Shown: positions 21,622 through 40,629, numbered from the stretch's first letter. The stretch: DNA of 64,000 nucleotides from Lyngbya aestuarii BL J (GCF_000478195.2 NZ_AUZM01000002.1:1-64000), one strand, 5' to 3'. The notes: a model not told the origin generated them from the letters alone. Made by a program: numbers and translations.

Positions 21622-21872
21622 CTACTGTTGACTGCTCACAGGTGACTGTCAAAGCTGATCCCCAATTTGCTAAAATGTTATCATTTGATGACAATACGAT
21701 CCCCGAGTTGCCGATAAATCCGTACATTTACTTATAATTTGTTGCACTCCCCCCTTGACCACTCGAAAAATATTCTTCAATATATTGAGTAATTAAGCGA
21801 TCCCCACGATCCCAAAGAAAAGCTACAGATACACCTAAATTGTTGTTGTTAGAAGTGGAGAACATCAAGCTC
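21622..21872. other. Leader region of the DUF4912 gene
   Basis: Between the ftn2 terminator and the DUF4912 start I see only A/T-rich sequence, including a TATTCTTCAATATATTGAG palindrome-like patch near 21770-21788. The promoter is probably here. No small gene was found. Confidence 0.4.
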
Positions 21873-24854
21873 ATGGTTAAAGATCGTCCCCCCTTAGAAG
21901 AGATGACATTGAGACAACTGCGTAAAGTTGCGAGTGAATACGGAATCTCGCGTTATAGTCGAATGAGAAAATCACAGCTTTTAGCCTCTATTCAAGAAAT
22001 TGAACGCCAAAGAATGGGATTATCCAGTCCCTCCGCCTCAACACTCAAGTCTCAAGAGGAGGTAGAAGCTGCCAAATTTTCAGTCGGTCAAGCAGAACAA
22101 GTAGATGAAGTTTTGTCCTCTGTAGACGAAGAACTCGCTGATTTACCCATCGGATATGGTTTAAGTCGCATTGTGTTGATGGCCAGAGATCCAGAATGGG
22201 CTTATGCGTACTGGGATGTCTCTAGCGAACACAAAGAAGAATTTCGCCGCCAAGGAGGAGAACAACTCACTCTGAGAATTTACGATGTTACAGAGATTAA
22301 CCTAGCCTATCAAAGTCCCCACAGCATTCAGGAATATCCCTGTGATGAACTTGCTCGGGAATGGTATGTACCGATTCCTGTTAGCGATCGCGAATATGTG
22401 ATAGAAATTGGTTATCGTTGTGCAGATGGTCGCTGGTTGATCTTGGCTCGTTCTGCGGCGATTCGTATTCCGCCCATATATCCTTCAGACTGGATCGAGG
22501 ATCAATTCATCACCGTATCTTGGGATGAGGAACTTCAGGGTAAAACCTTTGCAGAATTGACCCCACCCACTCAACCTGGAAGTGATACTGAAGATCGCCT
22601 CTACAAAGAGATTTTTGGTATAGATGATCTAGAAGCAACAAGAGTTACAGGTTCATTATTTGGTTCCATGCACCAAGTTTCCTTACACGAAGAAACGGTA
22701 AGTTCCTACGTCTTACCCTCTAGTGTGGGTCAATGGGCTTCTGGTATTGGACAAACGATGTCTGGCGCTGGCTTAACCACTTCTGGCGCTGGTTTAACCA
22801 CTTCTGGCGCTGGCTTAACCACTTCTGGAGTAGGAATCGGACAAACGATGTCTGGCGCTGGTTTAACCACTTCTGGCGCTGGCTTAACCACTTCTGGAGT
22901 AGGAATCGGACAAACGATGTCTGGTGCGGGTTTAACCACTTCTGGTATTGGTTTAACCACTTCTGGAGTAGGAATCGGACAAACGATGTCTGGCGCTGGC
23001 TTAACCACTTCTGGAGTAGGAATCGGACAAACGATGTCTGGTGCGGGTTTAACCACTTCTGGCGCTGGCTTAACCACTTCTGGAGTAGGAATCGGACAAA
23101 CGATGTCTGGCGCTGGCTTAACCACTTCTGGAGTAGGAATCGGACAAACGATGTCTGGTGCGGGTTTAACCACTTCTGGCGCTGGCTTAACCACTTCTGG
23201 AGTAGGAATCGGACAAACGATGTCTGGCGCTGGCTTAACCACTTCTGGAGTAGGATTAACTGCTTCTGGAGTAGGAATGGCGAAGTCCATGTCTGGAATT
23301 GGACAAACCATGTCTGGAGTAGGATTAACTGCTTCTGGAGTAGGATTAACTGCTTCTGGAGTAGGAATGGCGAAGTCCATGTCTGGAATTGGACAAACCA
23401 TGTCTGGAGTAGGATTAACTGCTTCTGGAGTAGGATTAACTGCTTCTGGAGTAGGAATGGCGAAGTCCATGTCTGGAATTGGACAAACCATGTCTGGAGT
23501 AGGATTAACTGCTTCTGGAGTAGGATTAACCACTTCTGGAGTAGGAATCGGACAAACGATGTCTGGCGCTGGTTTAACCACTTCTGGTATTGGCTTAACC
23601 ACTTCTGGAGTAGGAATCGGACAAACGATGTCTGGCGCTGGTTTAACCACTTCTGGTATTGGCTTAACCACTTCTGGAGTAGGAATCGGACAAACGATGT
23701 CTGGCGCTGGTTTAACCACTTCTGGCGCTGGCTTAACCACTTCTGGAGTAGGAATCGGACAAACGATGTCTGGCGCTGGTTTAACCACTTCTGGCGCTGG
23801 CTTAACCACTTCTGGAGTAGGAATCGGACAAACGATGTCTGGTGCGGGTTTAACCACTTCTGGCGCTGGCTTAACCACTTCTGGAGTAGGAATCGGACAA
23901 ACGATGTCTGGTGCGGGTTTAACCACTTCTGGCGCTGGCTTAACCACTTCTGGAGTAGGAATTGGACAAACGATGTCTGGCGCTGGTTTAACCACTTCTG
24001 GAGTAGGAATTGGACAAACGATGTCTGGCGCTGGTTTAACCACTTCTGGAGTAGGAATTGGAGAACGAATGTCTGGAGTGGGAATGAATATGTCTGGTGT
24101 CGGACAAACGATGTCTGGCGCTGGTTTAACCACTTCTGGGGCGGCAATTGGAGAACGAATGTCTGGAGTGGGAATGAATATGTCTGGCGCTGGTTTAACC
24201 GCTTCTGGTGCGGCAATTGGAGAACGGATGTCTGGAGTAGGAATGAATATGTCTGGCGCTGGTTTAACCACTTCTGGCGCTGGTTTAACCACTTCTGGAG
24301 TAGGAATTGGACAAACGATGTCTGGCGCTGGTTTAACCGCTTCTGGTGCGGCAATTGGAGAACGGATGTCTGGGGTGGGAATGAATATGTCTGGTGTCGG
24401 ACAAACGATGTCTGGCGCTGGTTTAACGGCTTCTGGTGCTGGTTTAACCGCTTCTGGCGCTGGTTTAACGGCTTCTGGTGCGGGAATGAATATGTCGGGT
24501 TATGGAATGGGCTTAACCATGTCCGGTGTGGGAATGTCCGGTGTGGGAATGGGGGCTTCTATACCTCCTGTTCGTCCCCGTAAGTTCTGGTTAGTTGCGG
24601 AAGCCGAATTAATCATTTACGGTGCGACTGAACCCGATGCAACGGTTACGATTGGTGGACGACCCATTAAACTGAATCCGGATGGTACGTTCCGCATTCA
24701 AGTTTCCTTCCCCGATGGTGTGATTGACTATCCAATTATGGCGGTGGCTGCTGACGGTGAACAAACTCGTTCTATTCACATGAACTTTAATCGTGAAACC
24801 CCAGAACGTCACACCAATACAAAAGAAGAAGCCGTTTTAGAATGGATCGGTTAA
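21873..24854 (+). CDS. DUF4912 protein with a roughly 600-residue Gly/Ser/Thr tandem repeat
   Basis: From ATG 21873 the protein is 993 residues; a TTG at 21840 would add 11. Residues 5-45 resemble a Rho-N/SAP-like helix pair (MTLRQLRKVASEYGI). Residues 90-220 are DUF4912 (WAYAYWDVSSEHKEEF, LTLRIYDVT). About 290-895 are repeats of two units, a 9-mer like VGIGQTMSG and a 7-mer like AGLTTSG, mostly in 23- and 16-residue blocks. A second conserved domain ends the protein (FWLVAEAELIIYGATEPDA). Function is unknown; the array may form an extended beta structure. Copy number is likely to vary between strains. There is no signal peptide. Confidence 0.88.
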   Translation: MVKDRPPLEEMTLRQLRKVASEYGISRYSRMRKSQLLASIQEIERQRMGLSSPSASTLKSQEEVEAAKFSVGQAEQVDEVLSSVDEELADLPIGYGLSRIVLMARDPEWAYAYWDVSSEHKEEFRRQGGEQLTLRIYDVTEINLAYQSPHSIQEYPCDELAREWYVPIPVSDREYVIEIGYRCADGRWLILARSAAIRIPPIYPSDWIEDQFITVSWDEELQGKTFAELTPPTQPGSDTEDRLYKEIFGIDDLEATRVTGSLFGSMHQVSLHEETVSSYVLPSSVGQWASGIGQTMSGAGLTTSGAGLTTSGAGLTTSGVGIGQTMSGAGLTTSGAGLTTSGVGIGQTMSGAGLTTSGIGLTTSGVGIGQTMSGAGLTTSGVGIGQTMSGAGLTTSGAGLTTSGVGIGQTMSGAGLTTSGVGIGQTMSGAGLTTSGAGLTTSGVGIGQTMSGAGLTTSGVGLTASGVGMAKSMSGIGQTMSGVGLTASGVGLTASGVGMAKSMSGIGQTMSGVGLTASGVGLTASGVGMAKSMSGIGQTMSGVGLTASGVGLTTSGVGIGQTMSGAGLTTSGIGLTTSGVGIGQTMSGAGLTTSGIGLTTSGVGIGQTMSGAGLTTSGAGLTTSGVGIGQTMSGAGLTTSGAGLTTSGVGIGQTMSGAGLTTSGAGLTTSGVGIGQTMSGAGLTTSGAGLTTSGVGIGQTMSGAGLTTSGVGIGQTMSGAGLTTSGVGIGERMSGVGMNMSGVGQTMSGAGLTTSGAAIGERMSGVGMNMSGAGLTASGAAIGERMSGVGMNMSGAGLTTSGAGLTTSGVGIGQTMSGAGLTASGAAIGERMSGVGMNMSGVGQTMSGAGLTASGAGLTASGAGLTASGAGMNMSGYGMGLTMSGVGMSGVGMGASIPPVRPRKFWLVAEAELIIYGATEPDATVTIGGRPIKLNPDGTFRIQVSFPDGVIDYPIMAVAADGEQTRSIHMNFNRETPERHTNTKEEAVLEWIG
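22738..24560 (+). repeat. Coding minisatellite, 69-, 48- and 90-base units
   Basis: The array encodes the Gly/Ser repeats of the DUF4912 protein. The main unit of 69 bases encodes one 9-mer plus two 7-mers. A 48-base form has one 7-mer. A 90-base form with ATGGCGAAGTCCATG occurs three times in perfect phase (anchors at 23281, 23371 and 23461). Units are multiples of three, so other frames stay open too: more than 500 codons on both minus frames and 616 codons in another plus frame. Near-identity of the units suggests recent expansion or gene conversion. Confidence 0.9.
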
Positions 24855-31656: not shown

Positions 31657-33426
31657 ATGAGCATTGTCCCACGCGGAATGTCTATCACTGAAGCTTATCG
31701 GCTTTATCGGGATGGTAACTTATTAGTTAACAGAAAGTATCAAAGAAAATTGATTTGGTCAGTTCCTGAAAAAGAGAAGCTAATTGGAAGTATTTTGAAA
31801 GGATATCCAATCCCTTTAATTTTGCTGGCTGAACGTCCTCAAGTTCATGGGAGTGGAAAGTATGAGATCATAGATGGTATGCAGCGACTTAACGCTATTT
31901 GTGATTTTATTGAAAATGGATTCTCATTTCAGGGTAAATATTTTGATCTTAACGAATTCTCTTATGCCAAACAATTAGCCGACGAAAAAAAATTTCAATT
32001 TACAGAAAATTCTGATAATTTATCTAGAAAAGAATGTTCAAAAATTTTAGATTATCAACTGGCAGTAACTATCTATACTGCAATGAATGAAAGTGACATA
32101 ACAGAGGTTTTTGGAAGAATAAATTCTGGTGGAAAGCAATTAAGTAATCAAGAGAGACGACAAGCAGGTGTAACAGCACCATTTGCAGAAGTAGTTCGTA
32201 CGATTGCTATGAAACTGCGTGGAGATGATACTCCGAAAACACTTCGCCTATTTGAGATGCCACAGATTAGCATTGATTCTAAAAAGACTCAAAACTATGG
32301 GATTAAAGCAGAAGATACTTTGTGGTGCAAGCAAGGAATTCTTCGCATAAATCAACTGCGTGATAGTGAAGATGAAGATATGATTGCAGATATTGCAGCG
32401 TCGATCTTGCTGTCTGAACCTTTGGCAAAAAGCTCAAATTTATTAGATAAGCTTTATGATGATAACAGCGAAGATTTTAAGCGTATTGAAAAATCTCTTG
32501 CTACTTATGGAGCAGACAGAATAGAAGAAAATATTGTAAAAACTTTTTCCGTACTTTCAGAAACTATTGAATCCTATAGCTTAGAGAATAAGTGCTTGGT
32601 AAATATTGTAAATCCGGGGTACAATCCAATACCACAGGCATTTTATACGATTTTTATGGCTTTTTTTGATCTGGTTATAGAGTCTGAACTTCTACCTGCT
32701 GATCCTCAAGGAATTATGCAAGCACTTAAAAATCTTCAAAAGAAATTAGATATAAGCCGTGGTTATAAAACAATCAAAGGACGTAAAACGAATATTAATC
32801 AAACTAAAGGACTGATACAAGAATTTTTTGTCAAAAAAGATACATCATCTTTAGGACAAGGTGCTGAGTTAATACAAGAATTTAAAAATTCCTTACTTCG
32901 TTCTCGGATAGAAACTACAAAGTACGAGTGTAAACAAGGTTTGCTCGATCTATCACAGAATAGGAAGCTAAATAATGATTTGCTGCAAAAACTTGTTAAC
33001 ACAATTTGTGGAATTGCAAACTCGAATCCCGAAACTGATGGATATATATTTTTAGGAGTAGCTGATAAAAAGCCAGATGCAGTAAGAATTAAAAGTTTAG
33101 ATAAGATTAACCCCATGGAAATCAACGGTAGATATATTGTAGGGATTGATAGAGAAGCAATATCTCTAGGCAAAAAGTTAGAGGACTACGTTGAATTATT
33201 AATTAAGACAATCCGCCAATCCGATTTAACAGAACCTTTAAAAACTCAAGTTCTAGCAAAAATTGATACTATAAATTATAAAGGACACTCTGTAATTAGA
33301 ATTAATGTTCCATCACAAAAAGATGTTTCGTTTGTAGGTGAAAAAGCATTTACCAGAGAGAATTCTTCAACAATAGAAGTAACAGGGCCAAGATTAGTGG
33401 CTATTAGTCAACTTTTTCAAAAATAA
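31657..33426 (+). CDS. DUF262 domain fused to a Schlafen/AlbA_2-like domain, candidate defence protein
   Basis: The 589-residue protein begins with a DUF262 (ParB/Srx-like) domain: NRKYQRKLIWS, SILKGYPIPLILLAE, IDGMQRLNAI (near residue 75) and FGRINSGGKQLSNQERRQ. DUF262 proteins include GmrS-type and SspE-type DNA-targeting nucleases. Instead of the usual C-terminal DUF1524 HNH domain, residues from about 420 resemble an AlbA_2/Schlafen domain (TTKYECKQGLLDLS, GIANSNPETDGYIFLGVAD). The gene is A/T-rich, lacks HIP1 and stands alone on its strand. Anti-phage function is inferred from domain context. Confidence 0.8.
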   Translation: MSIVPRGMSITEAYRLYRDGNLLVNRKYQRKLIWSVPEKEKLIGSILKGYPIPLILLAERPQVHGSGKYEIIDGMQRLNAICDFIENGFSFQGKYFDLNEFSYAKQLADEKKFQFTENSDNLSRKECSKILDYQLAVTIYTAMNESDITEVFGRINSGGKQLSNQERRQAGVTAPFAEVVRTIAMKLRGDDTPKTLRLFEMPQISIDSKKTQNYGIKAEDTLWCKQGILRINQLRDSEDEDMIADIAASILLSEPLAKSSNLLDKLYDDNSEDFKRIEKSLATYGADRIEENIVKTFSVLSETIESYSLENKCLVNIVNPGYNPIPQAFYTIFMAFFDLVIESELLPADPQGIMQALKNLQKKLDISRGYKTIKGRKTNINQTKGLIQEFFVKKDTSSLGQGAELIQEFKNSLLRSRIETTKYECKQGLLDLSQNRKLNNDLLQKLVNTICGIANSNPETDGYIFLGVADKKPDAVRIKSLDKINPMEINGRYIVGIDREAISLGKKLEDYVELLIKTIRQSDLTEPLKTQVLAKIDTINYKGHSVIRINVPSQKDVSFVGEKAFTRENSSTIEVTGPRLVAISQLFQK

Positions 33427-34755: not shown

Positions 34756-35985
34756 ATGGCTGATGTATTGACGTTGACGCTACTTGATCCACAGGATAAA
34801 ACTCCTCAAAAACAGTGGAAATTTGAGGATCAGTCTGTGATTGAGATCGGACGGGCTTCAGATAATCAGGTTGTGATTGTTGATCCGTTGGTGTCTCGTT
34901 ATCATCTACAACTTCGTAAACTGAGTGAGAATCCCCTCAAGTGGATGTTAGTCAATAAGGGGACAAATGGCACTTTTGTTAATGGGGTGCTAACTTCTCA
35001 AGCTGTTGTCACAGAGGGGATTTTAATTGAGTTAGCAAAAGGTGGCCCGCTACTTCAACTCAACTGGCAATTCATTCGTCCGGTTTCCATCCCCAATACT
35101 TCCGGTTGTTCTCACGCCGGAAACCCACCCAACAATTTATTTTGTATTCATTGCGGTTTACCCATTCATATTGAACGCAGTATCCGCAATTATCACGTTT
35201 TAAGAACGTTAGGACAGGGAGGAATGGGAACAACAACCCTGGCTTGGAATGCGGAGTCGAGTTTACCTCAAACTTTGGGTCAGATCCGAATTCCGGCGTT
35301 GGTAGTTCTCAAAGAAATGAATGCAGACATGGCACAAATTGCCAAATCTCAAGAACTCTTTGAACGAGAAGCCCGTACTCTCAAAGGGTTAAACCATGAG
35401 GGAATTCCTCAGTTCTATGACTTTTTTGTGGAAGAGGGGAAAAAATATCTGGCGATGGAAATGGTTCATGGTCAAGACCTAGAAAAGATCGTACAGCATC
35501 GAGGGCCAGTTACTCCTCCACAGGCGATTAATTGGATGATCCAAACCTGTGAGGTGTTAGGCTACCTTCATGTTCAAGATCCGCCCATTATTCATCGAGA
35601 TATTAAACCCGCAAATTTGCTATTACGAAATCTAGATCAACGGATTGTTGTCCTTGATTTTGGGGCGGTTAAGGAGATTGGAACGCCTCCGGGAACCCGT
35701 ATTGGGGCAGAGGGATATAGCGCCCCCGAACAGGATCGAGGACAACCTCTGACTCTTTCTGATCTTTATGCGATCGGTTCGACACTAATCTTTTTATTAA
35801 CTGGTGAAAGTCCCTTAAACTTTTATGGAAAACGGGGCGGTAGCTACGGTTTTAACTTAGAAAGCGTTCCTACAATTACCCCTGAACTGCGAACTGTGAT
35901 TGAACGAGTCACAGAATATCGACCTCGCGATCGCTACCCCGATGCCCAACACCTTTGTCAAGCTTTACGAGACTGTTTGAATTGA
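34756..35985 (+). CDS. FHA-domain serine/threonine protein kinase
   Basis: The 409-residue protein has an FHA phosphothreonine-binding domain (about 5-105, with IEIGRASDNQVVI and SRYHLQLRK). A zinc-ribbon-like knuckle follows (CSHAG...FCIHCGLP, about 116-136), then a Hanks-type kinase domain (about 148-405). The kinase has LGQGGMGTTTL, VVLKEM with the ATP lysine, HRDIKPANLLL, DFGAVKE and APEQDRG, so it should be active. The FHA domain likely binds its own or a partner's phosphothreonine. The genomic link with SpoIID suggests, but does not prove, control of cell-wall processes. Confidence 0.92.
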   Translation: MADVLTLTLLDPQDKTPQKQWKFEDQSVIEIGRASDNQVVIVDPLVSRYHLQLRKLSENPLKWMLVNKGTNGTFVNGVLTSQAVVTEGILIELAKGGPLLQLNWQFIRPVSIPNTSGCSHAGNPPNNLFCIHCGLPIHIERSIRNYHVLRTLGQGGMGTTTLAWNAESSLPQTLGQIRIPALVVLKEMNADMAQIAKSQELFEREARTLKGLNHEGIPQFYDFFVEEGKKYLAMEMVHGQDLEKIVQHRGPVTPPQAINWMIQTCEVLGYLHVQDPPIIHRDIKPANLLLRNLDQRIVVLDFGAVKEIGTPPGTRIGAEGYSAPEQDRGQPLTLSDLYAIGSTLIFLLTGESPLNFYGKRGGSYGFNLESVPTITPELRTVIERVTEYRPRDRYPDAQHLCQALRDCLN

Positions 35986-36626: not shown

Positions 36627-37700
36627 TTAAAAGTTGCTCACTAATTTGGCTTTCTTCAAAACCCAGCCTAAGAGACGCTCTTGAGTTACGAGAATATCAG
36701 CCGTTCCCTCCATACCCGAATAGATACTGTACTGATGATCGTCTTTCACCAAGTACGAGCTTTCGGGTTGAATCAGAACTTCATAATATGCTTTAGACGT
36801 TTGACGAGCAGAGGCTTGAGGGGCATTGCCGTTGAGGGAGATTCGTTTTACCCTTCCTTTCAATATACCATATTCTTGAAAAGGATAAACAGCAATTTGT
36901 AAATGAACTTGTTGATCGATCTCTATGCGGGAAATATCCTTTTCCGCAACCCACGCCAAAAACACCAGAGGAACTTGAGTCGGAACGATCTGAGCAATAA
37001 TTGTATCTGACTCTACGACTTGACCGGGTTTGGGAAGATTGAGTTGAATAATCGTCCCGGCTTGAGGGGCGCGAATGGTACTATGCCCAATCAGGCTGGT
37101 GATTTGTTCAAGTTGGCTTTGAGATTGAACAAACTCCTTTTGCACCTGCCATCGCTGTTTGAGAAGGGTTCGCCGTTCCTGAGCAAATTCTTGAGCGACT
37201 TCAGGAGTTGACTTCGTTAGCTCCACCACTGCTAATTCTACCGACAAATCATCCAACTTTTGACGCGATCGCCGAGAAGTTTTAGATTCTAATGTCGTCA
37301 AAATTTGCAGATCGAGGGTGGTGACATATTGATCGAGTTGATCGAGTTCTTGTTTCAACTGTGTGAGTTGCGCTTGGAGATTACGCTTTTGAGTCAACAG
37401 CAAAGATTGATTCACGTAAGCGATCACTTCTCCTTGTTCGAGCGGTTGATTTTCCCGAACTACAATTCGTTCTACAATACCGCTCGTTGCTGCCGAAACC
37501 AGTTCAACATCTCCTTCCGGTTGAGCCACTACAGGCACTCTCACACTGGGAGTATAGCGGATAAAACCCGCTAGCACAACAGATCCCCCAAAAGTTCCCA
37601 ACAATAACAGTCCCGCCCACTGTGTCCAGCGACCAATTGGCGGTAAAAAATCATCACTATCGAGAGGTTCAAGTTCTATCGGTTGGAAGTTGGAAGCCAT
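36627..37700 (-). CDS. HlyD-family membrane fusion protein of the peptide exporter
   Basis: I use ATG 37700 (MASNFQPIELEPL), giving 357 residues; an upstream frame would add nine. One transmembrane helix (about 30-50) is followed by a barrel-sandwich half (SAATSGIVERIVVRENQPLEQGEVI), a long coiled coil (about 105-205), the second half (STIRAPQAGTIIQLNLPKPG) and a beta-barrel. HlyD proteins bridge an inner-membrane ABC exporter to the outer membrane. It is divergent from the His-rich peptide gene and 0.8 kb from the C39 exporter. It therefore forms a type I secretion unit with them; no TolC-like gene is present. Confidence 0.9.
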   Translation of the reverse strand: MASNFQPIELEPLDSDDFLPPIGRWTQWAGLLLLGTFGGSVVLAGFIRYTPSVRVPVVAQPEGDVELVSAATSGIVERIVVRENQPLEQGEVIAYVNQSLLLTQKRNLQAQLTQLKQELDQLDQYVTTLDLQILTTLESKTSRRSRQKLDDLSVELAVVELTKSTPEVAQEFAQERRTLLKQRWQVQKEFVQSQSQLEQITSLIGHSTIRAPQAGTIIQLNLPKPGQVVESDTIIAQIVPTQVPLVFLAWVAEKDISRIEIDQQVHLQIAVYPFQEYGILKGRVKRISLNGNAPQASARQTSKAYYEVLIQPESSYLVKDDHQYSIYSGMEGTADILVTQERLLGWVLKKAKLVSNF

Positions 37701-38022
37701 AACACAGGAAACACCTGAAAAGAGCAATCCAAAAAAGCAGTTCTAGACGCGGAGCAAACCCTAATCACTGAAACTGATAGGACTCGATTTTACATCTATC
37801 CGAAGATAGACGACTCCCGAAGCGAGCAGTTGTCCAAAAATTAGCATTCTGACAAATCTTAACGTGATTTTGAGCAATCTACTAGAAATCTCAGGATTTA
37901 CCTGTTAGTATAGTCGCAACTTCTCAGGCTGAAGTCAATCCTTAGATTAATTCTCTGGGGTTTAAAGTCTGAGGTGAATGACATAAAAGCACAATCTATC
38001 TGTTGTTTCAAGGACATTGACC
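37701..38022. promoter_or_regulatory. Divergent promoter region between HlyD and the His-rich peptide
   Basis: These 322 bases must hold the promoters of both genes. A hairpin TCTATC-CGAA-GATAGA lies at 37795-37810. An AAGGA ribosome-binding site lies at 38010-38014, eight bases before the peptide ATG. I did not find a Fur- or Zur-like box by eye. Confidence 0.55.
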
Positions 38023-38226
38023 ATGGCAGAAAACAAGACCAAGAAACTATTCACTGAGATCTCTTCTGAAGAATCTTCCACTATCAATGGTGGTTCTCAC
38101 TACGACTACTATCACTACCATAAATCTGACTATCACCACAATAAATCCCACCACCACCATCATCATCATCACGATTATCATTACTACCCCGCTTACCACA
38201 GCGGATCTCCCCGTTATTGCTACTAA
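38023..38226 (+). CDS. His/Tyr-rich double-glycine-leader exported peptide
   Basis: From ATG 38023 the product is 67 residues; a TTG at 38017 is less likely because AAGGA is well spaced for the ATG. Residues 1-24 form a bacteriocin-type leader (LFTEISSEESSTINGG at 9-24) ending in Gly-Gly, the cut site of C39 peptidases. The mature part would be 43 residues with 15 His (eight in a row), 11 Tyr and one Cys next to last. That composition suggests binding of Cu, Ni or Zn. The divergent HlyD gene and the downstream C39-ABC exporter should process and export it. Function (metallophore, metal buffer or bacteriocin) is unknown. Confidence 0.85.
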   Translation: MAENKTKKLFTEISSEESSTINGGSHYDYYHYHKSDYHHNKSHHHHHHHHDYHYYPAYHSGSPRYCY

Positions 38227-38287
38227 TTTCCGCGCTTCGGTGCTGTACGCGATACAACTTCAGTTTTGATACTTAGTCCTACCAAAA

Positions 38288-38316
38288 GCGCCCGTAAGTT
38301 GCGGGTGTTTTTTTAC
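38288..38316 (+). terminator. Terminator after the His-rich peptide gene
   Basis: CGCCCG pairs with CGGGTG (one G-U pair) around TAAGTTG and is followed directly by seven T. It separates the abundant-peptide transcript from the exporter gene, which starts 170 bases later. Confidence 0.7.
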
Positions 38317-38481
38317 AGTTATCAGTAACCAGTAACCCGTTTTGACTTTGGCTTTTGGCTAATTGCCTATTGCCTTTTAACTGGTGACTCTCTTGCACAA
38401 ACTTTACTCATAATTGCGAAGTCCGTAATAAAGTAACTGCTGAACCCGAAGGGTGACTGTAAATTTCCTCTTGCCTTTTCT

Positions 38482-40629
38482 ATGAAATATCCGGTTGTTT
38501 TACAACATAGCGAAGAAGACTGTGGGGCGGCTTGTCTGGCAACTGTAGCTAAATATTACGGACGCACCTTTACCCTTCCCCATTTGCGATCAGTCTCCGG
38601 TACGGGTCAACAGGGAACCACTTTGCTTGGACTCAAACAGGGCGCAGAAGCGGTTGGGTTTAACGCTCGACCTGTCCGGGCTGACCCTGATATTTTAGAT
38701 GAAATTGATCAAGTTCCTCTACCTTTAATTATCCACTGGAAAGGGTATCATTGGGTAGTATTATACGGCTACCAACGTCAAAATTATATTATTGCCGATC
38801 CCGCTTTGGGAATACTTCAAGTTTCTAAAGAAGAATTAGCCGCTGGATGGAATGACTGGGTTTGTTTATTAATTGAACCGGATCAAGAACGGTTTTTCCT
38901 ACAAACTAGCGATCAAATTACTAATTTATGGCGATGGATTAAACGGGGTTGGATTTATCGTCAGGTTCTGATTCAAGTTTTTGCAATTAATATTGTTCTG
39001 GGTTTACTGGCTCTAGGTTCTCCGTTTTTAATTCAAATTATTACTGATGAAGTTTTAGTTCGAGAAGATTTACAACTGCTGCGATCTATTGTAATTGCAG
39101 TGGTGATTATGAATATATTCAGTAGTGCTTTAGGCTTAGTACAATCTAACTTAATTATTCACTTTTCTCAACGTTTAGAACTGGGATTGGTGATGGAATT
39201 TGGGCGAAAAATGTTACACCTTCCCCTTAGTTACTACGAAACACATCGGGGAGGCGATATTGTTAGCCGTCTCAAAGATATTCAAGAACTCAATCAATTT
39301 GTCTCCCAATTTATTGTTAGTTTACCCAGTCAGCTTTTAGTGGCAATTGTTTCTCTCCTTGTCATGCTCGTTTATAGCATTCCCCTGACTATTGCCGCTT
39401 TAATCATCGGGGGATTAATGGTTTTATCAACTTTAGCGTTACTCCCCACATTACGACAAAAAACACGTCAGTTCTTTGCAGTCGAAGCCGAAACTCAAGG
39501 TATTTTAGTTGAAACCTTTAAAGGTGCCTTAACCCTGAAAACCACAAACAGCACCCCGGAATTTTGGGAAGAATTTCAAACGCGCTTCGGACGACAAGCA
39601 AACCTCGCCTTTAAAACCACTCAAATTGCAATTCTCAATGATATTTTTTCTGGGTTAGTTAGTGGAGTTGGCGGTGTTGCGTTACTTTGGTTTGGGAGTA
39701 GAATTGTGATTACAAATAACCTCAGTATTGGTCAACTCCTCGCCTTTCTCACCCTCCAACGAAACATTACTATTTTTGTGAGTTCTATTGTTGGGTTTAC
39801 AGATGACTTAACTCGGGTACAAACCGTCACTCAAAGATTAGCTGACGTAATTGATGCTACTTCCGAAGGCTTGGAAACCGACAATCAAAAACCCTCAGCC
39901 TATATTCCCCCCAACGCTGACATTAACTGTAATAATATCACCTTTCATTACGGCGGACAAGTTAATTTACTCGATAAATTTTCCGTTGTCTTTCCCGGTG
40001 GGAAAACCATTGCATTAATTGGACGTTCGGGGTGTGGGAAAAGTACCCTCGCCAAATTAATTGCAGGTTTGTATCCCCTACAATCCGGTAATATTAGATT
40101 AGGGATGTACAATCAACAAGATTTATCCCTCGACTGTCTGCGTCAACAGGTGATATTAGTTCCTCAAGATGCCCATTTTTGGAGTCGTTCAATTATTGAA
40201 AACTTCCGCTTAGGACATCCCGGAATTCCCTTTGAAGCAATTGTTCACGCCTGTAAAATCTCGGGTGCGGATGAATTTATTAGTCAACTTCCTGAAAAAT
40301 ATCAGACCATTTTAGGGGAATTTGGCGCCAATATTTCCGGTGGACAACGACAACGATTAGCCATTGCCAGAGCGATTGTAACCAATCCTTCTCTCTTAAT
40401 TTTAGACGAATCAACCGCCAGTTTAGACCCCCTCAGCGAAAGCGAAATACTCTCTCGACTCCTGCAACAGCGGCGGGGAAGAACGACCATTTTAATTAGT
40501 CATCGACCCCGAGTTATAAACCAAGCGGACTGGATTATATTATTAGAAAACGGTCAACTCAAACTTCAGGGAGAATTATCGAAATTACAATCACTTCCCG
40601 GCGAACACCTCTATTTTTTAACCCCTTAA
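38482..40629 (+). CDS. Peptidase-containing (C39) ABC exporter
   Basis: The 715-residue protein has an N-terminal C39 peptidase domain with catalytic C14 (EEDCGAACL), H90 (GYHWVVLYG) and D106 (IADPALG). Six transmembrane helices follow (about 160-430), then an ABC ATPase with GRSGCGKST, NISGGQRQRLAIARAI and LLILDESTASLD. Such exporters cut double-glycine leaders and pump out the mature peptide. The obvious substrate is the His/Tyr-rich peptide 256 bases upstream. All catalytic residues are in place. No peptide-modifying enzyme gene lies nearby. Confidence 0.95.
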   Translation: MKYPVVLQHSEEDCGAACLATVAKYYGRTFTLPHLRSVSGTGQQGTTLLGLKQGAEAVGFNARPVRADPDILDEIDQVPLPLIIHWKGYHWVVLYGYQRQNYIIADPALGILQVSKEELAAGWNDWVCLLIEPDQERFFLQTSDQITNLWRWIKRGWIYRQVLIQVFAINIVLGLLALGSPFLIQIITDEVLVREDLQLLRSIVIAVVIMNIFSSALGLVQSNLIIHFSQRLELGLVMEFGRKMLHLPLSYYETHRGGDIVSRLKDIQELNQFVSQFIVSLPSQLLVAIVSLLVMLVYSIPLTIAALIIGGLMVLSTLALLPTLRQKTRQFFAVEAETQGILVETFKGALTLKTTNSTPEFWEEFQTRFGRQANLAFKTTQIAILNDIFSGLVSGVGGVALLWFGSRIVITNNLSIGQLLAFLTLQRNITIFVSSIVGFTDDLTRVQTVTQRLADVIDATSEGLETDNQKPSAYIPPNADINCNNITFHYGGQVNLLDKFSVVFPGGKTIALIGRSGCGKSTLAKLIAGLYPLQSGNIRLGMYNQQDLSLDCLRQQVILVPQDAHFWSRSIIENFRLGHPGIPFEAIVHACKISGADEFISQLPEKYQTILGEFGANISGGQRQRLAIARAIVTNPSLLILDESTASLDPLSESEILSRLLQQRRGRTTILISHRPRVINQADWIILLENGQLKLQGELSKLQSLPGEHLYFLTP

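Follow-up and report, generated by a model that had tools for sequence, protein, structure and literature searches.

Cleavage of a precursor after a double-glycine (GG) motif, followed by one-step export through a PCAT, an HlyD adaptor and an outer-membrane pore, is established for these protein families. Hundreds of cyanobacterial GG-leader precursors have been called bacteriocins, and almost no function is known for them. GG precursors encoded with C39-ABC exporters and HlyD proteins are well known in cyanobacteria, according to Wang et al. 2011 (PMC3140520). In Synechococcus elongatus, the small GG proteins EbfG1-4 are secreted with the C39 exporter PteB and are required for biofilm formation; EbfG proteins occur in the matrix and three of them form amyloid, as given in two reports (PMC4997328, PMC9981879). 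Outside bacteria, the His/Tyr-rich peptides of the squid beak undergo phase separation by His deprotonation, His-Tyr hydrogen bonds and Tyr clustering (PMC6884462). In this study, we analyzed a GG precursor gene and its exporter in the window, a stretch of 64,000 nucleotides from Lyngbya aestuarii BL J, and compared them with related loci in other cyanobacterial genomes. The features of the locus were listed in Table 1.

Table 1. Features of the peptide export locus, with positions counted from the first nucleotide of the window
Feature	Position	Strand	Remarks
HlyD-family membrane-fusion adaptor gene	36627..37727	-	divergent; Pfam HlyD_3 7.6e-17, HlyD_D23 4e-9
Shine-Dalgarno-like AAGGA	38010..38014	+	read in sequence; 8 bases before ATG
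GG-precursor gene	38023-38226	+	67 residues: 24 aa leader and 43 aa core
Double-glycine leader MAENKTKKLFTEISSEESSTINGG (24 aa)	38023..38094	+	read in ORF; aligned to relatives
His/Tyr-rich core (43 residues) and stop codon	38095..38226	+	C-terminal RYCY
His8 run in the core	codons 38149-38172	+	eight consecutive His
Terminator-like hairpin and T run	38284..38312	+	after peptide stop codon, before exporter gene
C39-peptidase ABC exporter gene, short type (C39, TMD and NBD)	38482..40629	+	Pfam and alignment to 4ry2

The exporter matched the Pfam models Peptidase_C39 (5e-37), ABC_membrane (3e-30) and ABC_tran (2e-28), and the solved structures closest to it were those of 4ry2, an ABC-type bacteriocin transporter, and its relatives (E 3e-106). 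In the alignment with 4ry2, Cys14, His90 and Asp106 of the exporter fall on the conserved Cys, His and Asp, and the Walker A and B motifs and the signature motif are all intact, so that the N-terminal C39 domain, TMD, NBD and catalytic residues of a PCAT are present, with a GG-leader precursor adjoining the exporter. HlyD homologues at the equivalent place in relatives share about 27-44% identity with the adaptor, translation of which more likely starts at an internal ATG (about 37700) than at TTG. The sequence-only reading had described a self-contained export locus, in which the peptide gene is flanked by a divergent HlyD gene and a C39-ABC exporter with intact catalytic residues and no modification enzyme is nearby. 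This description was borne out: exporter, HlyD and precursor genes are present and intact, and the neighbouring genes tested between 28 and 46 kb include no RiPP-modifying enzyme. Nearby enzymes of the lanthipeptide, YcaO or another modification type were likewise lacking, both here and in the relatives examined. The kinase gene at 34756-35985 was considered as a lanthionine synthetase and rejected, its model matches being limited to the kinase domain. A gene for a LeuA/HMGL-type synthase downstream of the exporter is common to the window and to a Microcoleus locus (L002), which suggests vertical descent. Elsewhere in the window, positions 31657-33426 encode a GmrSD N-terminal (DUF262) domain fused to Schlafen AlbA_2, which is possibly defence-related, and positions 21840-24854 encode a long protein whose middle part holds dozens of GAGLTTSGVGIGQTMS-type repeats between non-repetitive ends, the repeats being overlapped by long antisense ORFs.

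The reading frame, coordinates, GG leader, core composition and tract of eight His reported earlier for the precursor were all found as stated. The core contains 15 His, 11 Tyr and 1 Cys (35% His, 26% Tyr), with 7 additional His scattered outside the His8 tract, which is not a simple trinucleotide repeat because CAC and CAT codons are mixed in it. With Lys, Arg, Asp and Glu counted, the net charge of the core is near 0, and it is without cationic character unless His is protonated. The hairpin behind the gene, which a simple scan overlooked, has 13 pairs, -16.4 kcal/mol and a z of -4.3 (0 of 200 shuffles equal it), and likely ends the peptide transcript ahead of the exporter gene; with a T run following the stop codon in this way, the peptide gene probably has its own short transcript. 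When the same genome was searched with the precursor sequence and profile A1, no further precursor was found. As far as sequence can tell, the peptide gene is real and not a chance ORF, because relatives with the same leader are similarly placed in many genomes.

The absence of homologous peptides beside this exporter in relatives had been named earlier as a finding that would refute the proposal, and leader-alike GG precursors were indeed found at most of the family exporters read. The source genus is represented by one genome. The exporter was matched at E <= 1e-200 in 48 of 62 family genomes, and copies 64-69% identical numbered 41 besides the window's (62 family genomes, 61 others). Most family exporters whose flanks were read are adjoined by 1-4 GG precursors; at L106, L124 and L133 none was found beside the exporter by the search expression used; the L133 genome (G012) does have precursors, some 18 kb away and next to a different HlyD gene (L225). 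The leader consensus of the relatives is ELF[ST][DE][IL][ST]xEESA[ST][VI]NGG, and, for the rows shown, alignment of the window's leader with theirs scored 52-79, while shuffles averaged 16-20. A profile built from 16 precursors had matches, some weak ones covering the leader alone, in 59 of the 293 genomes of the order and in 31 genera; the window sequence is a row of this profile and its own score is not independent, while leader alignment and placement by the exporter are. The cores of the relatives fall into two types, Tyr/Arg/Gly-rich and Ser/Asn-rich, the latter in Microcoleus-like genomes. This second conserved type, encoded beside the same exporter (L109 384-608 and equivalents), is not Tyr-rich and has the C-terminus LFF(M/L/V)PQPxQLYLYDPNRxRPYKTL(I/V)V. 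More distant Tyr-rich arrays were also read, among which a tandem array at L207 7017-8832 holds five identical core copies; this is evidence of recent amplification, and the identical copies suggest high dosage.

Composition of the cores separates Tyr from His. Among 150 precursors beside 75 related exporters, His makes up 35% of the window core, 16% of the next (L107) and 12% or less of those following, most having 0-10%. The cores of orthologous exporters are Tyr/Arg/Gly-rich with 0-16% His, and the Tyr fraction of the main core type is about 12-44%. When the Tyr-rich label was placed on an exporter tree inferred by maximum likelihood, it required 3 changes, compared with 25.2 on average after shuffling (none of 500 shuffles was as low), in a tree made by a quick method and with near-copies inflating the clustering of the label. 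The window exporter lies on a long terminal branch (0.46) inside a fully supported 37-row clade, of which 36 rows are Tyr-rich, and this clade is clearly split from exporters of the Nostoc, Calothrix and Pleurocapsa type, whose cores are Gly-, Lys/Pro- or Thr-rich. Cores with a terminal CY, like RYCY of the window, are numerous in the sister clade nearest to it (L097, L099-L104, L107, L120, L136). Homology of the core beyond composition was examined and rejected, since local alignments were at best marginally above shuffles; against the best Tyr-rich relative, 7 of 300 shuffles were as good (about 80 comparisons, uncorrected). The apparent kinship of the gene therefore rests on leader, position, exporter clade, Tyr composition and the terminal Cys-Tyr, core alignment being marginal. 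The window peptide has the leader ELFxxxSxEESAxxNGG, the Tyr-rich core and the exporter clade by which the Tyr-rich GG-precursor family is defined here.

A conserved His-rich peptide family was consequently rejected, polyHis being confined to this genome among those examined and relatives having 0-16% His. The idea that a His-rich core is the purpose of the system was not supported by the comparison with orthologous exporters, nor did any other of the 150 precursors beside the 75 related exporters have more than 25% His. As to conservation of core composition, Tyr-richness was upheld and His content was not. Judged from the compared sequences, leader and Tyr-richness are conserved and His enrichment is lineage-specific, which makes the window peptide a His-rich outlier of a Tyr-rich secreted family rather than a conserved His-peptide system. 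In the window lineage, Arg and Gly are largely replaced by His. The relatives' cores are strongly cationic, with a net charge of +3 to +12 (Lys, Arg, Asp, Glu), whereas that of the window is near 0, and the function of the peptide may thus have shifted.

Our preferred reading, held tentatively and with slightly less than even confidence, is that the locus is a PCAT type I secretion unit delivering an aromatic low-complexity peptide to the cell surface or matrix, in the manner of EbfG and PteB. The C39 domain would cleave the precursor behind its Gly-Gly, and the 43-residue core would then leave the cell directly through the ABC exporter, HlyD and a TolC-type pore, presumably encoded elsewhere. 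The core would be a short, probably unstructured, aromatic-rich peptide of the Tyr-rich family tied to the exporter clade, and it would most likely act, perhaps structurally, at the cell surface or in the extracellular matrix. Its contacts may be Tyr-Tyr and His-Tyr, possibly with cysteine or oxidative cross-links, and His in place of Arg or Gly would add metal-ion binding capacity and a response to pH. By analogy, cores that are rich in Tyr and have Arg, His or Gly scattered through them would fit a self-associating aromatic peptide. Taken together, the data suggest a peptide with an extracellular matrix role and possible metal binding. A broader proposal, that filamentous cyanobacteria secrete Tyr-rich disordered peptides via C39 exporters which condense or cross-link outside the cell, the His version here being tuned to metal or pH in parallel to the squid beak, is speculative and rather unlikely to hold as a whole.

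Fifteen His among 43 residues, including His8, are expected to bind divalent metals in vitro on general chemical grounds. Codon runs for eight His were present in 45 of 291 cyanobacterial genomes scanned, many of them in short or doubtful frames; the recognisable long proteins at the places read were of the cation efflux, ZnuA, CobW, nickel insertion and ferrochelatase/CbiX kinds, with metal-handling domains confirmed by Pfam in 10 of the 10 tested and the others recognised by sequence likeness alone. Because such recognisable proteins look metal-handling, metal binding by the window core gains circumstantial support, and it is chemically plausible to likely. The sequence-only reading had gone further and proposed binding of Cu, Ni or Zn for uptake, detoxification or competition; of this, the binding remains plausible, and neither gene context nor upstream sites support a dedicated metal function. 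The neighbours tested include no metal transporter, receptor or metalloregulator, no Zur-like palindrome lies upstream of the peptide gene (matches in the window to a Zur consensus are at chance level), and the 291 genomes contained no second GG precursor with a run of eight His. A dedicated secreted chelator, whose polyHis core would take Cu, Ni or Zn for uptake, buffering or detoxification, is unlikely in our judgement, given also the low His of the orthologous peptides. There is a precedent for a cyanobacterial zinc exoprotein in ZepA of Anabaena (PMC10957091), a secreted zinc binder that serves as an analogy with no homology claimed; however, ZepA is a folded, two-domain, Zur-regulated protein with a signal peptide and PEP-CTERM, not a GG peptide.

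The usual annotation of such cyanobacterial clusters would make the peptide a bacteriocin-type antimicrobial, the exported core damaging competitors, and we regard this as a minor possibility on a par with the chelator. GG leader, C39-ABC and HlyD form the architecture of bacteriocin clusters (PMC3140520), bacteriocins usually have variable cores and multicopy arrays, and the relatives' cores are cationic and aromatic; yet that of the window lacks positive charge as long as its His are not protonated, no immunity gene was recognised nearby, and the tested cyanobacterial GG/C39 system of like shape serves biofilm formation (PMC4997328). The precursor does match NF038167 (CTB family bacteriocin), but weakly and in the leader region only (E 0.053, 13.7 bits against a curated cut-off of 32, core outside the match), and membership was rejected. 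It is also improbable that the His content reflects neutral or near-neutral drift of a Tyr-rich peptide with no new function. CAY (His) is one base from TAY (Tyr), and CGY (Arg) to CAY is also a one-base change, the His-rich core occurs in a single genome, and the long end branch of the exporter indicates a locus evolving fast here; against this stand the dispersed His outside the tract, its mixed codons, and the intact frame, leader, hairpin and exporter. Very improbable, finally, is a pheromone, that is, a PCAT-exported signal sensed by neighbouring cells: PCATs of other bacteria also export quorum signals (PMC10986499), but the core is long, low-complexity and variable, a receptor pair is absent among the neighbours tested, and relatives carry multicopy arrays.

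Other exporters of the superfamily carry Gly-, Lys/Pro- and Thr-rich cores, and thus the exporter does not dictate function. Examples are the Nostoc precursors by related exporters at L013, L020 and L029, with Gly-rich cores of GGNGGAGGPG type in near-identical multicopy arrays, and a GG precursor of Cyanosarcina (L054 2295-2456) with the Arg-Thr repeat core RRTRTRTRGRTRTRTRTGRR. The Tyr-rich secreted peptides are apparently a widespread and unnamed group. No description of a Tyr-rich or polyHis GG class was found in the literature searched, and the earlier remark that no such cyanobacterial product is known to be described agrees with this. Because the Tyr-rich class is coherent and linked to a single exporter clade, it offers a testable handle on function (matrix, adhesion, antimicrobial or metal), and the native His tract of its natural polyhistidine member allows that peptide to be detected and enriched.

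Of the known systems, the squid-beak His-rich proteins (PMC6884462) are comparable by analogy, as a disordered extracellular peptide there self-associates through its His and Tyr, and differ in being animal proteins with GHGLY repeats; no homology is claimed. By gene content, with a short C39-ABC exporter and HlyD and without SurA, CAP_ED or LanM, the locus corresponds to the group III clusters of Wang et al. 2011 (PMC3140520), which share this arrangement and have about 4 precursors per cluster with variable cores; their cores are Gly-, Cys-, Ser- or Thr-rich, and no Tyr- or His-rich class is mentioned in the accessible part of that paper. EbfG1-4 and PteB of Synechococcus elongatus PCC 7942 (PMC4997328, PMC9981879) resemble the locus and its relatives in their small GG-leader proteins beside a C39-peptidase exporter, their multiple copies and their GG or GA cleavage motif, whereas the EbfG cores, compared by description, are not described as Tyr- or His-rich in the accessible parts of these reports.
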